Assembly: GCF_023156505.1 (NCBI RefSeq)
Contig: NZ_JALNMJ010000019.1
Coordinates: 1 to 64,000, forward strand
Length of the DNA: 64,000 nt
Reading direction: 5' to 3'
From: Roseibium sediminicola
Lineage (GTDB): Bacteria; Pseudomonadota; Alphaproteobacteria; Rhizobiales; Stappiaceae
Notes under the pieces: model-generated
Databases searched by the model: none
What the model saw: only the letters and a program-made list of their open reading frames with translations
Told to the model about the DNA's origin: nothing
Shown here: positions 434-49,098 of the stretch, piece after piece
How the letters are laid out: each line of letters begins with the position of its first letter
Position numbering within the stretch: the stretch's first letter is position 1
Position numbers and translations under genes: made by a program

Positions 434-1237
434 CTACTGCGCCGTCCAGCCCCCATCCACCGGGATTGTCACCCCCGTCACGTTATGGGCCATCGGATTG
501 CACAGCCACAGCGCCAACGCGCCGATTTCCGACGGGTCGCTTGTCCGCAGCGAGGGCTGTTTTTCCTTCAGCAGATCCGCAATCCCCTTGTCACGGTCGC
601 CGTCGAACAGCGCGGCGCGAGCCTCCACCTGGGGTTCGATGATGGCGGTTTCCGTCCAGCCAGGGGCGATACAGTTGACCGTGATGCCGCCGGAGGCCTT
701 GGAGCCCTCTGCGGCATATTCCAGCGCCGCGACCTTGCTCATGCCGACGACACCGAATTTGGAGGCGACATAGGGCGCCTTGTTGATCGAGGCCACGAGC
801 CCGTGCACCGAGGCGATGTTGATCACCCGGCCGAAGCCTTTTTCCGCCATTTTGGGCAGGGTCAGGCGCATGGTGTGGAAAACGCCGGAGAGATTGACGC
901 CGATGATCGCGTCCCAGGTGGCGGCGTCCGCCTCCCTGAAACTGACGGTTTTCTGGATGCCGGCATTGTTGACCAGGATATCCGCGCCGCCCCAGGCCTC
1001 GACCTCGGCCATCATGCGTTCCACCGCCGCGACGTCGCGCATGTCGGCGTCGAAAAACTTGGCCTCCGGCGCACCGGCTTCCCGGACCTCGGCGACGGCC
1101 GCCTCGGCCTCCTCAGGGGTGGCGAGGCCGTGAACGGCGATGCGGGCGCCCGCTTCCCCCAGAGCTTTGGCGACGGCGAGACCGATGCCCTGGACCGAGC
1201 CGGTGACAAGTGCCGTTTTGCCTTTGAGATCGCTCAT
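434..1237 (-). CDS. bdhA: 3-hydroxybutyrate dehydrogenase (SDR family)
   Basis: This 267-residue short-chain dehydrogenase probably interconverts (R)-3-hydroxybutyrate and acetoacetate with NAD in the cytoplasm. The cofactor loop TGSVQGIGLA is near residue 12, NNAG near 92, the catalytic serine lies in INIASVHG, and the YVASK Tyr/Lys pair follows. The C-terminus IPVDGGWTAQ is typical of 3-hydroxybutyrate dehydrogenases. The ATG at 1237 overlaps the stop of the upstream ligase gene by 4 nt, and GGAGGAACC lies just before it, so this start is preferred over longer in-frame extensions. It is the second gene of a two-gene unit with the acyl-CoA ligase, pointing to short-chain hydroxyacid or polyhydroxybutyrate use. 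The exact substrate is inferred from family resemblance. Confidence 0.85.
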   Translation of the reverse strand: MSDLKGKTALVTGSVQGIGLAVAKALGEAGARIAVHGLATPEEAEAAVAEVREAGAPEAKFFDADMRDVAAVERMMAEVEAWGGADILVNNAGIQKTVSFREADAATWDAIIGVNLSGVFHTMRLTLPKMAEKGFGRVINIASVHGLVASINKAPYVASKFGVVGMSKVAALEYAAEGSKASGGITVNCIAPGWTETAIIEPQVEARAALFDGDRDKGIADLLKEKQPSLRTSDPSEIGALALWLCNPMAHNVTGVTIPVDGGWTAQ

Positions 1238-2763
1238 GCCGGTTCCTCCTCGTGGATGTCCTTGCGCAGCTCCGTCTTCAGGATCTTGCCGTAATTGTTC
1301 TTCGGCAGATCCTTGACGAAACGGTAGATCTTGGGCCGCTTGAAGCGGGCGATGTTGTCGAGGCAGAGCGCGTTCAGCGCCGCTTCCGTGACGCTCTGCC
1401 CCGGATGGCAGGCGATAAAGGCAACGACCACCTCGCCCCATTCGGCGTCCGGCTTGCCGATTACGGCAGATTCGTGCACGGCGGGATGGGCCAGCAGCAC
1501 CTCCTCGACCTCGCGCGGATAGATGTTGGAGCCGCCGGAAATGATCACGTCCTTGGAGCGGTCCTGCAGGGTGACATAACCGTCCTCGTCCATCCGGCCC
1601 ATGTCGCCGGTCCAGAGCCAGCCGTTCTTGAGCGTCGCGGCGGTGGCATCCGGGTTGCGCCAATAGCCGGCCATCACCGTCGGACCCTCGACGACGATCT
1701 CGCCGACCGCGCCGCGCGGCAGCTCCGCGCCAGCGTCATCGACAATCGCCACCCGCACCACCGACTGGGCGGTGCCGACGGAATTCAGCCGCTCGCGCCA
1801 GCGCCTGTGGCTGCGATCCGCGACCTCGTGGCGGGCGAGCGCCGTGATGCCCATCGGGCATTCGCCCTGGCCGTAGATCTGGACAAAGCGCGCGCCCATC
1901 ACCTCGACGGCTTCGAGAATATCGGCCTCATACATCGGCCCGCCGGCATAGACGATGGTGCGGAGCCCCTTGCCGGTTCCCCCGCCCGCCTTGGCGGCAT
2001 CGACCAGGCGGCGCACCATGGTCGGCGCGGCGAACATGGAGATCGAGCCGATCAGCGGGGCGATAGAGAGGATTTCCTCCGCGTCGAAGCCGCCGCTTCT
2101 CGGCACCACGTGGCGCGCGCCCTTGATCACATGCATGAAATTATAGAGCCCGGCGCCATGGCTCATCGGCGCGGCATAAAGCGCGGCGTCCTGCGGTTTG
2201 ACGTCGTCGACATCGGCAAAATAGGTCAGCGCCATCGAGGCAAGATTGCCGCAGGTCAGCATCACGCCCTTGGGTTTGCCCGTCGTGCCGGAGGTGTAGA
2301 ACAGCCAGGCAAGATCCTCGCCCTTGAGGGGCACGGGGCTCCCAAGCGGTGCGGTCAGGCGCATGGCGTCGAATTCGGCGCTTTCCAGCAAGACCAGAAC
2401 GACGCTGTCGGGCAGGAGCGGTGCCAGCGCGGCGGCGGACTTGTCATCTGAGAAGACGAAGGATGCACCGGAATTTTCCAACATCCAGACGGCTTCCCGT
2501 TCATGCAGCTTGGCATTGATCGGCACGGCCGCGGCGCCCGCCCACCAAACGCCGTAAAGCGCCTCCAGATAGCGGGTGGAATTGCCGGCAAAGAGCGCCA
2601 CCCGATCGCCTTTCGCAACGCCGTGGCCCTTCAGCGCGGCGGCAATCGCCGCGGCGCTTTTGGCAAATTCGGCATAGGTGGCGCGGCGCTCGGTGCCCTC
2701 CAATAGCGCCGGCGCCTCTGGCGTTCTGGACGCGGTCCTTGTAAGCCATTCGGCCGGGTTCAT
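1234..2763 (-). CDS. AMP-forming acyl-CoA synthetase / fatty-acid-CoA ligase
   Basis: This 509-residue ANL-superfamily enzyme would activate a carboxylic acid to its CoA thioester through an acyl-adenylate. The AMP-binding P-loop YTSGTTGKPKGV, the IYGQGE and WTGDMG motifs, and a C-terminal GGSNIYPREVEEVL segment followed by the late Lys in LPKNNYGKI are all visible, in family order and at normal length. The ATG at 2763 has GGAGGA 4 nt upstream; a further in-frame start at 2778 is less likely. It is the first gene of the unit with bdhA (ATGA overlap). A malonyl-, short- or medium-chain substrate is possible; the sequence does not settle it. No membrane segments or signal peptide are seen. Confidence 0.85.
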   Translation of the reverse strand: MNPAEWLTRTASRTPEAPALLEGTERRATYAEFAKSAAAIAAALKGHGVAKGDRVALFAGNSTRYLEALYGVWWAGAAAVPINAKLHEREAVWMLENSGASFVFSDDKSAAALAPLLPDSVVLVLLESAEFDAMRLTAPLGSPVPLKGEDLAWLFYTSGTTGKPKGVMLTCGNLASMALTYFADVDDVKPQDAALYAAPMSHGAGLYNFMHVIKGARHVVPRSGGFDAEEILSIAPLIGSISMFAAPTMVRRLVDAAKAGGGTGKGLRTIVYAGGPMYEADILEAVEVMGARFVQIYGQGECPMGITALARHEVADRSHRRWRERLNSVGTAQSVVRVAIVDDAGAELPRGAVGEIVVEGPTVMAGYWRNPDATAATLKNGWLWTGDMGRMDEDGYVTLQDRSKDVIISGGSNIYPREVEEVLLAHPAVHESAVIGKPDAEWGEVVVAFIACHPGQSVTEAALNALCLDNIARFKRPKIYRFVKDLPKNNYGKILKTELRKDIHEEEPA

Positions 2764-2812
2764 GTCTTCCTCCCACACGGCGGTTCCGGGCGAGCCGGGA
2801 CCTTACAAAAGC

Positions 2813-2958
2813 CTCATCCTGGGGAGCAGTCAGAAGCCCTGCCCCGCTCAGGCCGCGCGTTCCGGACAGACGGCCCGAGACCTTACGCACATGAGGACCT
2901 CGCACGCTGCTGCCGCGGGCAAGGCACGGAATACGGGCGAACGGCTCCCCAGGATGAG
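2813..2958. repeat. Intergenic inverted-repeat element with 15-bp ends
   Basis: CTCATCCTGGGGAGC (2813-2827) is exactly mirrored by GCTCCCCAGGATGAG (2944-2958) around about 115 bp of GC-rich non-coding DNA. It sits between the divergently transcribed acyl-CoA ligase and PAS-LuxR genes. The arm resembles the TCATCCTGAGGAGG arm of the element at 22354-22479, so both may belong to one family. Confidence 0.7.
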
Positions 2959-3070
2959 AGGGGTGCGGCGATGCAAGGTTTCCCGCCCTTTAACCCGCGC
3001 AAGCCTCCTCCAGGCCGCCTCGGGCGCAGTCGCGCGCACAACCGATCTCTTTGGATCAATCCCCTTTTGG

Positions 3071-3094
3071 CTGTTTTCAGTATATTGAAAACAG
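3071..3094. promoter_or_regulatory. 24-bp palindrome in front of the PAS-LuxR gene, candidate operator
   Basis: The arms CTGTTTTCA and TGAAAACAG are perfectly complementary around a 6-bp AT-rich spacer (GTATAT). It lies about 78 bp upstream of the ATG of the PAS-LuxR gene, in an otherwise GC-rich gap. The size and symmetry fit a dimeric helix-turn-helix regulator. Autoregulation by the adjacent LuxR-type protein is an inference. Confidence 0.55.
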
Positions 3095-3171
3095 GGACCG
3101 ATCTGCGCCCATTCAGATACTATCCCGGACCTTGGCCGGGATATTCCGGCAAAACACGTAACGGAAACAAA

Positions 3172-3717
3172 ATGGACGACCTCGCCGCGCTGGCCTTCGA
3201 CAATGCCCCCATCGGGCTGGCCTTCACCGAAAACCGGGATATCAGGCGCTGCAATCCGCGGCTTGCGGAGATGTTCGGTTTCTCCGAGGAGGCGCTGACC
3301 GGCGCGTCGCTGTCGATGCTTTACCCGTCTTCGGAAGAGTTCCAGCGCATCGGCCGGATCGGCCAGGAAATCATGCGCGGCGTCGGCCGCTACCGTGACG
3401 AGCGCATCATGCGCCGCAAATGCGGCGAGTTGTTCTGGTGCCGGGTGCGCGGCCAGTCGCTCGACCCCGAAGCGCCCTTTGCCCGGGCGGTGTGGAGCTT
3501 TGCCGACATTTCCGAGGACCGGCCGCTCGCCGAGATGAGCCTGCGCGAAAGGCAGGTGGCCAAGCTGCTTGCCGAAGGCAATACCACCAAGGAAATCGCG
3601 CGGCTCCTGGATCTGTCGCCGCGCACGGTCGAGGTCCACCGGGCGCGCTTGATGAAAAAATTCAGCGCCCGCAACAGCCTGGAACTGATCGCCCATATTG
3701 CGGGCATCCCTCTTTAG
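3172..3717 (+). CDS. PAS-LuxR transcriptional regulator
   Basis: This 181-residue cytoplasmic regulator has one N-terminal PAS domain (about 1-110, with [18 protein letters not shown] and a [11 protein letters not shown] strand) joined to a C-terminal LuxR/FixJ-type helix-turn-helix (about 118-175: [14 protein letters not shown], then [20 protein letters not shown]). There is no receiver domain, so the PAS is the likely sensor. The ATG at 3172 is preferred because the PAS begins immediately after it; upstream in-frame sequence is not domain-like, and the ribosome site is weak (GGAAA). The next gene, a Cds1-like enzyme, starts 38 nt downstream on the same strand, so this is its probable regulator. 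The ligand is unknown. Confidence 0.8.
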
Positions 3718-3755
3718 GGCCACTCTTCCTGAAAAGAGGATTCCGGGAGAGACAG

Positions 3756-4796
3756 ATGGACAAATGGGTGCAGGGCGCGATCGCCAAAATCAACGCGGAC
3801 GCGCACCGATCCGCCGACACGCATCTGTTCAAGCTGCACGGCATCGAGACGGGTGGTGTCGACATCTATCTGAAGGACGAGAGCACCCATCCGACCGGCA
3901 GTTTGAAACACCGGCTCGCCCGTTCGCTGTTTCTCTATGCGCTGTGCAACGGCAAGATCCGCGAAGGCACGCCGGTGATCGAGGCGTCCTCGGGCAGCAC
4001 GGCGGTGTCGGAAGCCTATTTTGCCCAGATGATCGGCGTTCCCTTCATTGCCGTGGTGCCGCAATCGACCGCGTTGAGCAAGATCGAGCTGATCCGGCTT
4101 TATGGCGGCGAACCGCATTATGTCGGCTCCGCGCCGGAAATGCATGACGCCGCCGAGGCGCTGGCGGCCGAGATGAACGGTCATTTCATGGACCAGTTCA
4201 CCTATGCGGAGCGGGCGACCGACTGGCGCGGCAACAACAATATCGCCGAAAGCATCTTCGAGCAGATGGCCTTTGAGCCGCATCCGGTCCCCAGGATGCT
4301 GGTGATGAGCGCGGGCACCGGCGGCACCTCGGCAACGCTCGGCCGCTTCATCCGCTATCGCGGCCACGACACGGAGCTGACCGTGGTCGATCCGGAAAAT
4401 TCGGTCTTCTACGACGCCTTCAAGACCGGCGACCGAACCCTTACCGCAAATTGCTCCAGCCGCATCGAGGGCATCGGCCGGCCGGAAGTGGAACATTCCT
4501 TCCTGCCGGATGTCATCGACCGGATGATCAAGGTGCCGGACGCAGCCAGCGTCGCCACCATGCTGTTTCTGGAAAAGCTGGTCGGCCGCAAGGCCGGCCC
4601 CTCCACGGGCACCAACCTGTGGGGCACACTCAAGATCGCCCGGGAAATGATCGAACGCGGCGAGACAGGCTCGATCGTCACGGTGATGTGCGACAGCGGC
4701 CAGCGCTATCTCGACACCTATTACAATCCGGACTGGGTCACCGCCAAATTCGGCGATCTTTGGGCCTTTTCGCGGGAGCTGGAGGGCTGGGTCTAG
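3756..4796 (+). CDS. cds1: Cds1-type PLP-dependent L-cysteine desulfhydrase-like protein
   Basis: This 346-residue fold-type II PLP enzyme resembles the cysteine synthase family but has the Cds1 signature known from mycobacteria: [19 protein letters not shown] with the likely Schiff-base lysine, [38 protein letters not shown] for the phosphate, [10 protein letters not shown] and [10 protein letters not shown]. Family members of this length release sulfide from cysteine, giving pyruvate and ammonia. GGGAGAG lies 7 nt before the ATG at 3756. It probably forms a unit with the PAS-LuxR gene. A biosynthetic cysteine synthase role is less likely because the family motifs match Cds1 more closely. 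The assignment is made from memory of the family. Confidence 0.8.
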
Positions 4797-4844
4797 CAAG
4801 CCGTTTTCAAGCAGCCCCATACTCAATCTCAGGCCTTGCGGCTT

Positions 4845-5004
4845 GCGCCCCTCTCCCTCCTTGCGGGGGAGATGTCCGGGAACCGGACAGAGGGGGGGTG
4901 AAACGGTTGCCCCCAATTCTGAAACGCTGCATGATTTCGATAGGTTGATACCCCCCTCTGTCTCCTGGCGGAGACATCTCCCCCCCAAGGAGGGAGAAGG
5001 GCGC
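4845..5004. repeat. 160-bp inverted-repeat intergenic element
   Basis: A 55-bp arm at 4845-4899 (GCGCCCCTCTCCCTCC...) is mirrored with few mismatches at 4950-5004 (...GGAGGGAGAAGGGCGC), around a 50-bp centre that itself repeats GGTTG motifs. It resembles intergenic mosaic repeats common in Rhizobiales genomes. The rest of the gap to 5241 is non-coding; 5059-5105 holds another repeat-like piece (TGTCATCCCGGCC ... GAGCCGGGACC) with dyad character. Confidence 0.75.
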
Positions 5005-5241
5005 AAGATCTGCCGTATGCACCTCCTCGCCAAAGCTGTGTCAAAGACGTCCCCCTCGGTGTCATCCCGGCCAAGCGCAGCGCGAGCCGGGACCCACTCG
5101 CCGACCCGCTTGCCAAAGCATTTGGGTGTCCTCGAAGGTGCCTTCACTCCAGCTCTCTGCAAACGAGTAGGCCCCGGGTCTCCCTTCGTTCGCCTGGGGC
5201 GACACCGATAGGTGTGGCTTGGCTGAAAGATACGATTGTCC

Positions 5242-5718
5242 CTAGCCGTTCAGCAGCAGCCAGATCTCGCGGCCTTCCAGGCCCATCAGCGCGCAATAGA
5301 CGCCGGGGCCGATGAGATAGGAGGTGGCGGTGAAGCTGCCGCCCGACAGTTCCACCCCGGCAATGGCGGTGCCGCAATCGGCGCGGCGGGTCAGCGGGTC
5401 GATAGGGTCGTCCTCGGGCGTTCCGCCGACAATTGCGACCAGCCGCCGTCCGTCCTCGGCCGAAAACAGCACCCCGCCGCCGTCAGCGCGCATGAAGCGG
5501 CACGGCGGCTCCACACGGAGCGGTACGGAGCCGGTGTCCTGTTCCTTGCTGAAATCAAGATGGCAGGTGCCTTCCCGGGCGGCCAGCGTCAACCGGAAGC
5601 CGTCAATTTCGATCCTTGCCTCCGCCTGGCTGCGCTCAGGACTGTCCGATGGCAGAAGATAGACAAGGGCGGCCGCCATCAGGAGGGCCGGGACCGCCAA
5701 GAGCACGACATGTTTCAT
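5242..5718 (-). CDS. Membrane-anchored or exported protein, candidate immunity protein for the Tae4-like amidase
   Basis: This 158-residue protein of unknown family begins with a basic-hydrophobic segment (about residues 2-21, MKHVVLLAVP onward), so it is either a signal peptide or a single anchor facing the periplasm. There is no lipobox. The rest is a soluble, acidic, probably beta-rich domain with four cysteines (in GTCHLDF, PPCRF, RADCGTA, VYCALMG), consistent with an oxidising compartment. Its ATG overlaps the stop of the Tae4-like gene (shared ATGA), giving the effector-then-immunity order expected of such pairs. I do not recognise it as a known Tai4 protein, so the immunity role rests on position and topology. 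Confidence 0.6.
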   Translation of the reverse strand: MKHVVLLAVPALLMAAALVYLLPSDSPERSQAEARIEIDGFRLTLAAREGTCHLDFSKEQDTGSVPLRVEPPCRFMRADGGGVLFSAEDGRRLVAIVGGTPEDDPIDPLTRRADCGTAIAGVELSGGSFTATSYLIGPGVYCALMGLEGREIWLLLNG

Positions 5719-10275: not shown

Positions 10276-11460
10276 TCAGTGCAGCGGCAGTGTCCGGTGA
10301 TGGGTCGGCCGGGCCGGGTCGAAGAAGTGGCTCATCGGGCCCTCGTCCTCGAACAGGACCGCCCAGCGCCGCATGGCGTCCGGGTCGAGTTCAACCCCGA
10401 GACCCGGTCCTTCCGGCACGCGGACGACGTCGTTGATCTGCCGGAACGGTCCGCCGCGGATGACATCGCCGATCTGCCAGCGGAACAGCGATTGCGAGGC
10501 CTCCGAGATCAGCGGGGTCGCCGCCGAGACATGCAGGTAAGCGGCGGTCATGATGCCGAGATCGTTGGAATAACACCAGAATCCCTTGCCCATCACCTCG
10601 CAGGCGGCGATGAATTTCAGGCTTCTGGAGATCCCGCCAAGGGCGGCGAAATTGCAGACAAAATTGTCCGGCGCGCCCAGCGCGACGGCCCGTTTCAGGT
10701 CCGGCACATGGGTCGAGAACGGTATCAGGCTGTGCTGGCGCAGGGCCGCCATTTCCTCGAAGGTGGCGACTGGGTCCTCGTAGTTGCGGATGTTGAAGGG
10801 CTCCAGTTCCCTGAGCAGCCAGCGCGCCGTCGTCAGCGAATATTGCATGTTGCTGTCGAGCTTGATCTGGGCCTTCTCGCCCAGCGCCTCGCGCAGCATC
10901 CGGACCGTCCGGATTTCAAGCTCCGGATCGCCCTGGATCAGTTTGCCCTCGAAGATGCTGGATCCGTGCTCGTCGCGCATCCTCAGGCAATAGTCTCGGA
11001 TCGCCTCCGGGCACATTTCCCCGCCGGCGCCCTTATGCTCCGGCCGGAACGAAAAATACTCGGAGAACCTGATATCCTTGCGCACGGCGCCGCCGAGCAG
11101 CTTGTAGAGCGGCAGGTTAAAGACCTTGCCCTTGATGTCCCAGAGCGCCAGTTCTACCGCACCGAAGGCGACCGAGGCCGCGCCCTCGCCCGTATTGGCG
11201 GTGATCTGCCAGGGCGGTACGCAACGCGCCTCGCAATCGGCCAGGTCCAGCGGATCCGCGCCGATCAGTGCCGGAGCAATCTCGGCCTTGATAACCTCGC
11301 CGAAATGATACCAGGGCGCCTCGCCGAGGCCGACGACACCTTCATCGGTTTCCACCTCGACGATCGACTTGGAGGCGCCCGGATAAAGCCCACCGGTCCA
11401 CCAGAACGGCGCATCGAACGGCACGTTGACATGGGTCACGCGGATATTGGTGATTTTCAT
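10276..11460 (-). CDS. Enolase-superfamily (mandelate racemase/glucarate dehydratase-like) enzyme
   Basis: This 394-residue protein has an N-terminal capping domain (about 1-130) and a C-terminal barrel (about 140-380). Metal-ligand strands are recognisable: KLDSNMQY (Asp), NYEDP (Glu), and a third segment PFSTHVPDL. The base-bearing segment reads FEGKLIQG. Overall it resembles glucarate dehydratases, but the region aligned by eye to their SNNHFDIS catalytic loop reads YSNDLGI, so the His of the usual His-Asp dyad seems absent and the reaction may differ. It starts 8 nt after the stop of the MttB-like gene, so the two are cotranscribed; a shared role in breaking down a methylated amine or betaine is inferred only from this. 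Confidence 0.75.
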   Translation of the reverse strand: MKITNIRVTHVNVPFDAPFWWTGGLYPGASKSIVEVETDEGVVGLGEAPWYHFGEVIKAEIAPALIGADPLDLADCEARCVPPWQITANTGEGAASVAFGAVELALWDIKGKVFNLPLYKLLGGAVRKDIRFSEYFSFRPEHKGAGGEMCPEAIRDYCLRMRDEHGSSIFEGKLIQGDPELEIRTVRMLREALGEKAQIKLDSNMQYSLTTARWLLRELEPFNIRNYEDPVATFEEMAALRQHSLIPFSTHVPDLKRAVALGAPDNFVCNFAALGGISRSLKFIAACEVMGKGFWCYSNDLGIMTAAYLHVSAATPLISEASQSLFRWQIGDVIRGGPFRQINDVVRVPEGPGLGVELDPDAMRRWAVLFEDEGPMSHFFDPARPTHHRTLPLH

Positions 11461-11468
11461 ATTGAGCC

Positions 11469-13046
11469 TCAGTACCAGCGGTCTTCCATGGAGGATTTTC
11501 TGGTGGCCACAAAATCCGCCAGCTGCTCGGCAAGGCCGGTCTCCAGCGGCGGTGCCTCATAAGCGGCAAGCGTCTCCTTCCAGGCCTTGTTGGCGCGCGT
11601 TGCCGCATCGACCGAACCGTTTTCCTCCCAGGTCTCGAACGGCGTGTTGTCGGCGGCGGCCGCGTCGAAAAACGCGGTCTCGTAATTGCGCAAGGTATGC
11701 TCACAGCCGAAGAAATGATTGCCGGGTCCGACTTCCCTGAATGCGTCGAGCGCCAGCGTGTTGTCATCGACGACGACACTGCCGAGATAGGTGTGCAGCG
11801 CACCGCAGAAATCCGCGTCCATCATGAATTTTTCATAGGACATCGACAGCAGGCCATCGAGGAAACCGGCGGAATGCAGGATGAAATTGGCGCCGCAATG
11901 GATCGCCGAGAGCATCGACATGGTGCCCTCGTTCATCGCCTGTGCGTCCGGCAGCTTCGACGTGGTGAAATTGCCGGCGCAGCGCAGCGGCAGTCCTGCC
12001 CTTCGGGCCAGCTGACCGACCACCAGCGAGCCTGCCGCCGGTTCCGGCGTGCCGAAGGTCGGCGAGCCGGAGCGCAGGCTCATAGAGGACAGGAAATTGC
12101 CGTAGATCACCGGCGCGCCGGGCCGCACCAGCTGGGTCAGGGCGCAGCCCGCCAGCGTTTCCGCATGGGCCTGGGCGATCGCGCCGGCCGTCGTTACCGG
12201 CCCCATGGCGCCGCCCAGAATGAATGGCACCAGCACATTGCCCTGGTTGGCCGCCGCATAGGCGCGCAGGACACTGGTCATGGTTCCGTCCCAGACCAGC
12301 GGCGAATTGACATTGAGATTGCCCATGATGACGCAGTTGTTTTCGACATACTCCGAGCCGAACACTATCCGGGCCATCTCGATGGAATCTTCCGCCCGCT
12401 CCCGCGCGGTCACCGAGCCCAGGAACGGCCGGTCCGACAAGGTGACATGGGCGAGAACCATGTCGAGATGGCGCTTGTTGACCGGCACATCGACCGGCTC
12501 GCAGATCGTGCCGCCTGAATGATGCAGCCAGGGCGAGGACTGGGCCAGCTTGATGAAGTTGCGGAAGTCCTCGATGGTTCCGTAGCGCCGCCCCTCGTCG
12601 AGATCCATCACGAACGGACTGCCATAGGCGGGCGCGAAGACCACGTTGTCGCCGCCGATCTCGACGCTGTTGGCGGGATTGCGCGCATGCTGGGTGAAGC
12701 GTCTTGGCGCCGTTTTCAAAAGCTCGGGGATCAGGCCCTTGGGAAACCGGACCCGGACGCCGTCCAGCTCCGCGCCCGCCCCTTTCCAGAGCGCCAGGCA
12801 TTCCGGATCGTCGCGGAACTCGATGCCGATCTCGGCAAGCAGCGTTTCCGCCGTTGCCTCAATGCGCACGAGGCTTTCCTCGGAAAGGATGTTGTGGGGC
12901 GGCAGCTGCCGCACGATATAGGGAATGCCGACCGGCGCGACGCTCACTGAACGCTTGGCCCGGCGTCCGGCACGTCCACCGCTGCGCCCGCCCCGCGCCG
13001 CCTCGTTCACCTCTTCCCGGCTGGCAACATCTGAAACCGCGGCCAT
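11469..13046 (-). CDS. MttB-family (non-pyrrolysine) methyltransferase
   Basis: This 525-residue protein belongs to the trimethylamine methyltransferase family (COG5598). Visible landmarks are HNILSEESLVRIEATAETLL, the GSPFVMDLDEGRRYGT segment, LGGAMGPVTTAGAIAQAHAE, PGAPVIYGNF and GANFILHSAGFLDG. It is read through without an in-frame amber codon, so it is the non-pyrrolysine branch, whose studied members demethylate quaternary amines such as glycine betaine and pass the methyl to a corrinoid protein. A basic Gly/Arg-rich N-terminus (about 18-32) precedes the domain. No corrinoid protein or reactivator gene is beside it, so the acceptor must lie elsewhere or the chemistry differs. It is the first gene of a unit with the enolase-like enzyme and is divergent from a LysR gene. 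Confidence 0.8.
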   Translation of the reverse strand: MAAVSDVASREEVNEAARGGRSGGRAGRRAKRSVSVAPVGIPYIVRQLPPHNILSEESLVRIEATAETLLAEIGIEFRDDPECLALWKGAGAELDGVRVRFPKGLIPELLKTAPRRFTQHARNPANSVEIGGDNVVFAPAYGSPFVMDLDEGRRYGTIEDFRNFIKLAQSSPWLHHSGGTICEPVDVPVNKRHLDMVLAHVTLSDRPFLGSVTARERAEDSIEMARIVFGSEYVENNCVIMGNLNVNSPLVWDGTMTSVLRAYAAANQGNVLVPFILGGAMGPVTTAGAIAQAHAETLAGCALTQLVRPGAPVIYGNFLSSMSLRSGSPTFGTPEPAAGSLVVGQLARRAGLPLRCAGNFTTSKLPDAQAMNEGTMSMLSAIHCGANFILHSAGFLDGLLSMSYEKFMMDADFCGALHTYLGSVVVDDNTLALDAFREVGPGNHFFGCEHTLRNYETAFFDAAAADNTPFETWEENGSVDAATRANKAWKETLAAYEAPPLETGLAEQLADFVATRKSSMEDRWY

Positions 13047-49061: not shown

Positions 49062-49098
49062 ATTCTGGGAGCCGTTTTCGTTGAACGGCTCCCAGAAT
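49062..49098 (+). terminator. Perfect 15-bp hairpin after cpdB
   Basis: ATTCTGGGAGCCGTT (49062-49076) pairs exactly with AACGGCTCCCAGAAT (49084-49098), 17 nt after the cpdB stop. It lacks a T-run but the stem is strong. Further on, 49167-49211 is a lone arm of the repeat family seen at 22354-22479. Confidence 0.55.

Follow-up and report, generated by a model that had tools for sequence, protein, structure and literature searches.

A PAS-LuxR regulator, probably of a divergent acyl-CoA ligase operon, precedes a CdsH-like cysteine desulfhydrase gene in one Roseibium lineage

Cysteine desulfhydrases of the PLP type are known from several bacteria. Cds1 (Rv3684) of Mycobacterium tuberculosis converts cysteine to H2S and pyruvate; the start of rv3684 overlaps the stop of rv3683, and the accessible part of the source mentions no regulator of the kind considered here (PMC8389258). 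In Pantoea ananatis, the available portion of the report gives CcdA as the major L-cysteine desulfhydrase (PMC10821248). PAS-LuxR regulators have been treated almost entirely in Streptomyces and related actinomycetes, among the literature matches listed. According to the accessible part of one account, those of Streptomyces are pathway-local, mostly belong to antibiotic clusters and have a 16-bp site, CTVGGGAWWTCCCBAG (PMC9774167). The open literature searched yielded no functional description of the Alphaproteobacterial PAS-LuxR family discussed below, no joint account of Roseibium, LuxR and PAS domains, and none of cysteine desulfhydrase with LuxR and PAS domains. We report here on a locus of Roseibium sediminicola in which these two protein types are encoded side by side. 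To our knowledge, no account of such a regulator-enzyme pairing has been published.

The window, i.e. the whole stretch of 64,000 nucleotides that was analysed, comes from a genome of 6.3 Mb. A PAS-LuxR transcriptional regulator of 181 residues (3172-3717, plus strand; PF13426 and PF00196) is followed on the same strand, 38 nt from stop to start, by a CdsH/Cds1-like PLP cysteine desulfhydrase of 346 residues (3756-4796, plus strand; PF00291 and NF052478). An earlier note on this DNA had described these two genes, their spacing and a 24-bp palindrome in front of them correctly to the base. Absent from it was the operon divergent from the regulator, which comprises an AMP-dependent acyl-CoA ligase (1234-2763, minus strand) and a 3-hydroxybutyrate-dehydrogenase-like SDR oxidoreductase (434-1237, minus strand). 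The ligase carries PF00501 and PF13193, its closest solved relatives are fatty-acyl/feruloyl-CoA synthetases, and its top acyl-CoA ligase model scores 437 bits, below the cutoff of 476. The SDR was assigned from its conserved neighbourhood, from its closest solved relatives, which are D-3-hydroxybutyrate dehydrogenases (E 9.4e-67), and from the NCBIfam 3-hydroxybutyrate dehydrogenase model NF009093, at 248.7 bits just under the cutoff of 258. Elsewhere in the window, an inverted repeat 3' of the enzyme gene (4849-5000; 28-nt arms, 93% complementary, 96 nt apart) is possibly a dispersed element, and a perfect hairpin with 15-bp arms and a 7-nt loop lies at 49062-49098. Two adjoining minus-strand ORFs at 10276-13046 look like an enolase-superfamily enzyme and an MttB-type methyltransferase, their translations being judged by eye.

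The placement of the downstream enzyme in the cysteine desulfhydrase family, already proposed in the earlier note, is borne out by its domain, its best model and its resemblance to CdsH. It has the PALP fold (PF00291, E 2.9e-49, 168 bits) and shares 66.5% identity, over 97% of the protein, with the product of a Salmonella gene annotated cdsH. Relatives from Pantoea are 63-67% identical, and CcdA of P. ananatis is presumably one of them. The best NCBIfam model, NF052478 'L-cysteine desulfhydrase Cds1', gives 539.9 bits. Because the equivalog cutoff of 600 is missed, the enzyme is filed as a CdsH-like relative and not as a Cds1 equivalog; only one of seven relatives tested reaches that cutoff (Yinghuangia, 624), while those of Yersinia (570) and Pantoea (535) miss it. 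K51 is found in 110 of 111 aligned sequences, the window's included, the exception being one gap, and both S79-G80-S81-T82 and G187-T188 occur in all 111. By the roles usual in the family, K51 is presumably the Schiff-base lysine and S79-G80-S81-T82 the substrate loop. The enzyme would be expected to convert L-cysteine to pyruvate, ammonia and H2S. An Lrp/AsnC gene lies no more than 600 nt away in 48 of the best 80 of at least 591 relatives (79 of the 80 are not labelled Roseibium), and in 47 cases it is upstream and divergent. Such a gene is found neither in the first 14 kb of the window nor in the stretches of related genomes examined.

On the regulator side, both a PAS domain (PF13426, E 2.9e-8) and a GerE/LuxR HTH (PF00196, E 1.6e-17) were recognized, and domain hits at E up to 0.1 included no receiver. 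The PAS domain is closest to the solved structure 3mqo (E 4.4e-29, residues 7-119). A haem or flavin sensor was considered and rejected, residues 1-118 containing no histidine and, by eye, no LOV motif. Two PAS cysteines are conserved, C27 in 28 and C90 in 29 of 32 aligned family members. They do not point to sulfide in particular, since they are shared by paralogues that sit beside peptide-transport genes. Seven such paralogous PAS-LuxR loci (L086-L092, with regulator starts near local positions 4660-5530) all adjoin genes of the peptide-ABC-transporter type, and four also have an M20 peptidase gene; the neighbours were identified by profile models at one locus and by sequence cluster at the others. 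Their leaders hold perfect ACCGT-N6-ACGGT and ACGGT-N6-ACCGT arrays in 7/7 cases, phased with a period of 11 and located between the start codon and a -10-like element. No match with fewer than 2 mismatches to the paralogue array was seen in 880 control windows. These arrays are a strong operator candidate for the paralogue family.

The conserved partner of the regulator is the ligase/SDR pair. All 13 Roseibium genomes that carry an orthologue of the regulator also have ligase and SDR side by side, directly next to the regulator in 12 and across ~5 kb from it in G017, the nearest relative. A supposed loss of the ligase in G017 proved wrong, a longer stretch showing it across that interval. Beyond the genus, regulators 65-69% identical to that of the window are divergent, according to the annotation, from genes for an acetyl-CoA acetyltransferase, an AMP-binding protein and a 3-hydroxybutyrate dehydrogenase/SDR in Ruegeria sp. 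TM1040 and Roseivivax sp. THAF40; in Leisingera the divergent neighbours are a thiolase-domain protein and an SDR. More distant relatives occur near ABC-transporter and CoA-pathway genes, and some near neither, as judged partly by annotation and partly by reading translations; in G157 (L174) a thiolase-like neighbour was read by eye. In view of these conserved neighbours, a role as a pathway-local one-component regulator in carboxylate/acyl-CoA metabolism is most likely for the protein, and the ligase operon is its probable main target.

Alignment of the regions 5' of the regulator revealed a shared block of 21 bp, its 3' end only a few bases away from the start codon. In the window this leader block, TTCCGGCAAAACACGTAACGG, lies between ligase and regulator at 3144-3164 (plus strand). 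A search of 45 Roseibium genomes with the pattern TTNCGKNNWWWNACSTAAYGG returned a single copy in every one of the 13 that carry a regulator orthologue (at least 70% identity, E up to 1e-60) and no copy in the other 32; the reversed control pattern gave two hits. The pattern was built from 12 of the 13 sites, the sole independent hit being that of G017, where the block stays at the ligase promoter and ~5 kb with a uxuA-like gene (L247, 1079-6107) separates it from the regulator. Outside Roseibium, the nearest matches before the regulator differ at 5 of 21 positions in Ruegeria, 7 in Roseivivax and 8 in Leisingera; of 1000 shuffles, 1, 15 and 61, respectively, do as well. Since the block overlaps the Shine-Dalgarno region, its conservation may derive partly from translation. 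Just 5' of it, a -10-like GATACT (3116-3121, plus strand) is conserved as GATAC[TA] in 13/13 orthologous regions; a sigma-70 scan of 2750-5250 returned no promoter. On this comparative evidence, GATACT is a putative promoter element and the leader block a candidate operator, which is a better one than the eye-catching palindrome. Two other identities of the block were rejected. It was judged by eye not to encode an N-terminal extension of the protein, because differences among orthologues would change amino acids, and because several of them have a GGAG-like motif after it. Nor is it the ACCGT-N6-ACGGT array of the paralogues, to which the 13 orthologues show 2-4 mismatches, mostly in the control range. 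A second palindrome with 8-bp arms, TATCCCGG-N7-CCGGGATA, lies at 3121-3143 (no strand); a version with 7-bp arms was read by eye in G017, and the remaining 11 orthologous regions yielded none with arms of at least 7 bp. The divergent intergenic region also contains an 18-nt inverted repeat (2813-2958; 94% complementary, 110 nt apart), and CTCATCCTGG pieces resembling it are seen in the G436 and G428 regions.

The association of the regulator with the desulfhydrase is more restricted. Among 45 Roseibium genomes, the regulator is found in 13, the enzyme (E up to 1e-100) in 17 and both in eight. A genome of the genus, G013, has an enzyme identical to that of Roseibium sp. MMSF_3412, in keeping with the genus name. 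The two genes are linked in seven of these eight, directly in four and with a symporter gene between them in three; G006 is the sole unlinked case. Its regulator orthologue (L063, 5703-6245) contains an in-frame stop, TAG. Direct adjacency, with 36-40 nt from stop to start, is seen in G000, G017, G428 and G436, a set made up of the window's genome and three others that share 85-92% enzyme identity with it. In G005, G433 and G010, an MFS metabolite/H+ symporter gene and ~630 bp lie between regulator and enzyme, which suggests a separate enzyme promoter there; the enzymes of G005 and G433 are identical, so these are hardly independent cases. At E 1e-80, 27 of the 45 genomes contain relatives of the symporter, which in 17 of the 27 are at least 62% identical. 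The seven linked enzymes form one clade in a tree (support 97/96), as do the four linked enzymes of another (99/95), pointing to a single origin after which the linkage was kept. In a regulator tree with four linked rows, the linked regulators were not resolved as one group. A search for clade-specific enzyme residues gave R114 and Q316 alone, neither unique to the linked seven. The maintained linkage argues for some use of the arrangement, but this trait is specific to one lineage and does not amount to a module conserved widely. The pairing put forward in the earlier note finds partial support in these Roseibium genomes; no PAS-LuxR match (E 1e-3, flanks of up to 6 kb a side, some shorter) stands beside any of the best 80 enzyme relatives, and none was seen at E 1e-2 at the enzyme loci of 13 further genomes of the class.

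Building on gene order, gene families and their conservation, we consider it fairly probable that this locus encodes a local regulator of an acyl-CoA pathway, to which a CdsH-like enzyme was added downstream in one lineage and with which it is probably co-transcribed in four genomes. The PAS-LuxR protein would act as a one-component local regulator of the divergent ligase/3-hydroxybutyrate-dehydrogenase-like operon, its PAS domain probably sensing a small molecule of the ligase/SDR pathway. It probably acts at the leader block, just 3' of the -10-like element, where it would repress its own gene and activate or derepress the ligase operon. A CdsH-type L-cysteine desulfhydrase would have become fixed downstream in one Roseibium lineage and, in 4 of 45 genomes, is likely co-transcribed with the regulator, so that cysteine degradation would follow the promoter of the regulator and not the usual DecR/Lrp control. 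Our confidence is slightly lowered by G018, which is among the 32 genomes without an orthologue as defined here and lacks the leader block while having a 54% identical regulator that adjoins a 58% identical ligase.

The palindrome itself (3071-3094, no strand), CTGTTTTCA-GTATAT-TGAAAACAG with perfect 9-bp arms, was characterized by repeat scan and ortholog comparison and appears genome-specific. When the 408-bp intergenic region was dinucleotide-shuffled 3000 times, 51 shuffles contained arms of 9 bp or longer separated by no more than 8; nine repeats of this kind lie in the whole window, against one to six in 12 shuffles. A chance origin at that very place (~2%) is thus unlikely, and for the window as a whole the palindrome is not exceptional. 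The genome has no further copy at up to 2 mismatches; the 44 other Roseibium genomes have none with 0-1 mismatch, and the matches in 13 of them all carry 2 mismatches and never lie at the regulator. Together with a comparison of the intergenic segment with its own genome, these searches led us to reject a dispersed element or a multi-site operator. Upstream of the orthologous regulators, the palindrome is missing from all 12 other Roseibium regions, the nearest relative included. The earlier note had seen in it the operator of the regulator, an idea that fails on this lack of conservation in orthologous loci, and it is probably not that operator. One could still imagine that a different regulator, specific to this lineage, uses it as a genuine operator to control the divergent ligase gene, given its position between divergent genes and its rarity by chance in this intergenic region; the sole copy in the genome and the lack of close copies in the genus speak against it, as does the aligned segment of G017 at the ligase promoter, where one arm survives in part and no palindrome is formed. 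We regard such a role as improbable. As for its origin, 8-bp direct repeats, ACCGATCT, at 3041-3048 and 3097-3104 flank the segment, and the alignment with G436 hinted at a possible small insertion between them, although the aligned region of G017 retains diverged homologous sequence at this segment.

Two further readings concern the gene pair. One takes up the sulfide-signalling idea of the earlier note: in a dedicated sulfide/cysteine module, the PAS domain would respond to sulfide, to cysteine or to the redox state, and cds1 would be under the control of the regulator by way of the palindrome. The linkage in seven of eight genomes with both genes, the intact pair in G017 despite its separation from the ligase, and the conservation of C27 and C90 speak for it, but the cysteines are common to the paralogues beside peptide-transport genes, the palindrome is missing in 12/12 other regions, and no PAS-LuxR hit accompanies the best 80 enzyme relatives in the flanks covered. 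Moreover, 5 of the 13 genomes have the regulator without an enzyme orthologue (E 1e-100), always with ligase and SDR. The conserved partner is the ligase/SDR operon in 13/13 Roseibium genomes, joined by a thiolase in Ruegeria and Roseivivax, and a dedicated sulfide-sensing module is very unlikely. Alternatively, the desulfhydrase may have been inserted by chance and be expressed from its own weak promoter or by read-through, the two genes being neighbours with no regulatory link. The single origin of the linked enzymes, the location elsewhere or absence of the enzyme in most of the genus, and the MFS gene with ~630 bp between the two in G005, G433 and G010 fit this proposal, which nevertheless leaves aside that the 36-40 nt spacing is kept between the window and three genomes whose enzymes have diverged to 85-92% identity, and that the pair held together through the rearrangement in G017. 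We find mere neighbourhood unlikely, if less so than the sulfide module, and retain a local acyl-CoA-pathway regulator with an added desulfhydrase as the preferred reading.

What the added enzyme might do is a more tentative matter. The desulfhydrase may have been rewired from Lrp/DecR to the PAS-LuxR regulator of an acyl-CoA/hydroxyacid pathway, which would couple the release of H2S and pyruvate from cysteine to the breakdown of a carboxylate, perhaps a sulfur-containing substrate; we offer this as a rather doubtful conjecture. In any case, the locus shows how an eye-catching palindrome can mislead: the better operator candidate here is a short leader block that each genome with the regulator carries once.

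Compared with described systems, the regulator resembles Streptomyces PAS-LuxR proteins such as PimM and PteF in having an N-terminal PAS domain, a C-terminal LuxR HTH and no receiver. The Streptomyces site occurs here at about chance level and was rejected: the window matches it at best with 5 mismatches, a level that 76 of 300 shuffles attain; among the 13 orthologous regions the range is 4-6, with G017 best at 4 (19 of 300); and the palindrome at 3071-3094 has 8. The closest structures, 3mqo and 3mqq, represent a LuxR-family PAS domain as a 120-residue chain of the PAS part only, whereas the protein of the window also has the HTH; judging from how they are listed, the papers that mention 3MQO deal with structure prediction. 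The enzyme has the model of Cds1 (Rv3684) as its best, yet stays under its cutoff, and it shares its PLP enzyme family with Salmonella CdsH, which is known together with YbaO/DecR. There, decR is divergent from cdsH, whereas the enzyme gene of the window has no adjoining Lrp/DecR gene and is preceded by a PAS-LuxR gene on its own strand. A cysteine desulfhydrase gene without its usual Lrp/DecR neighbour thus provides a small case of possible regulatory replacement.
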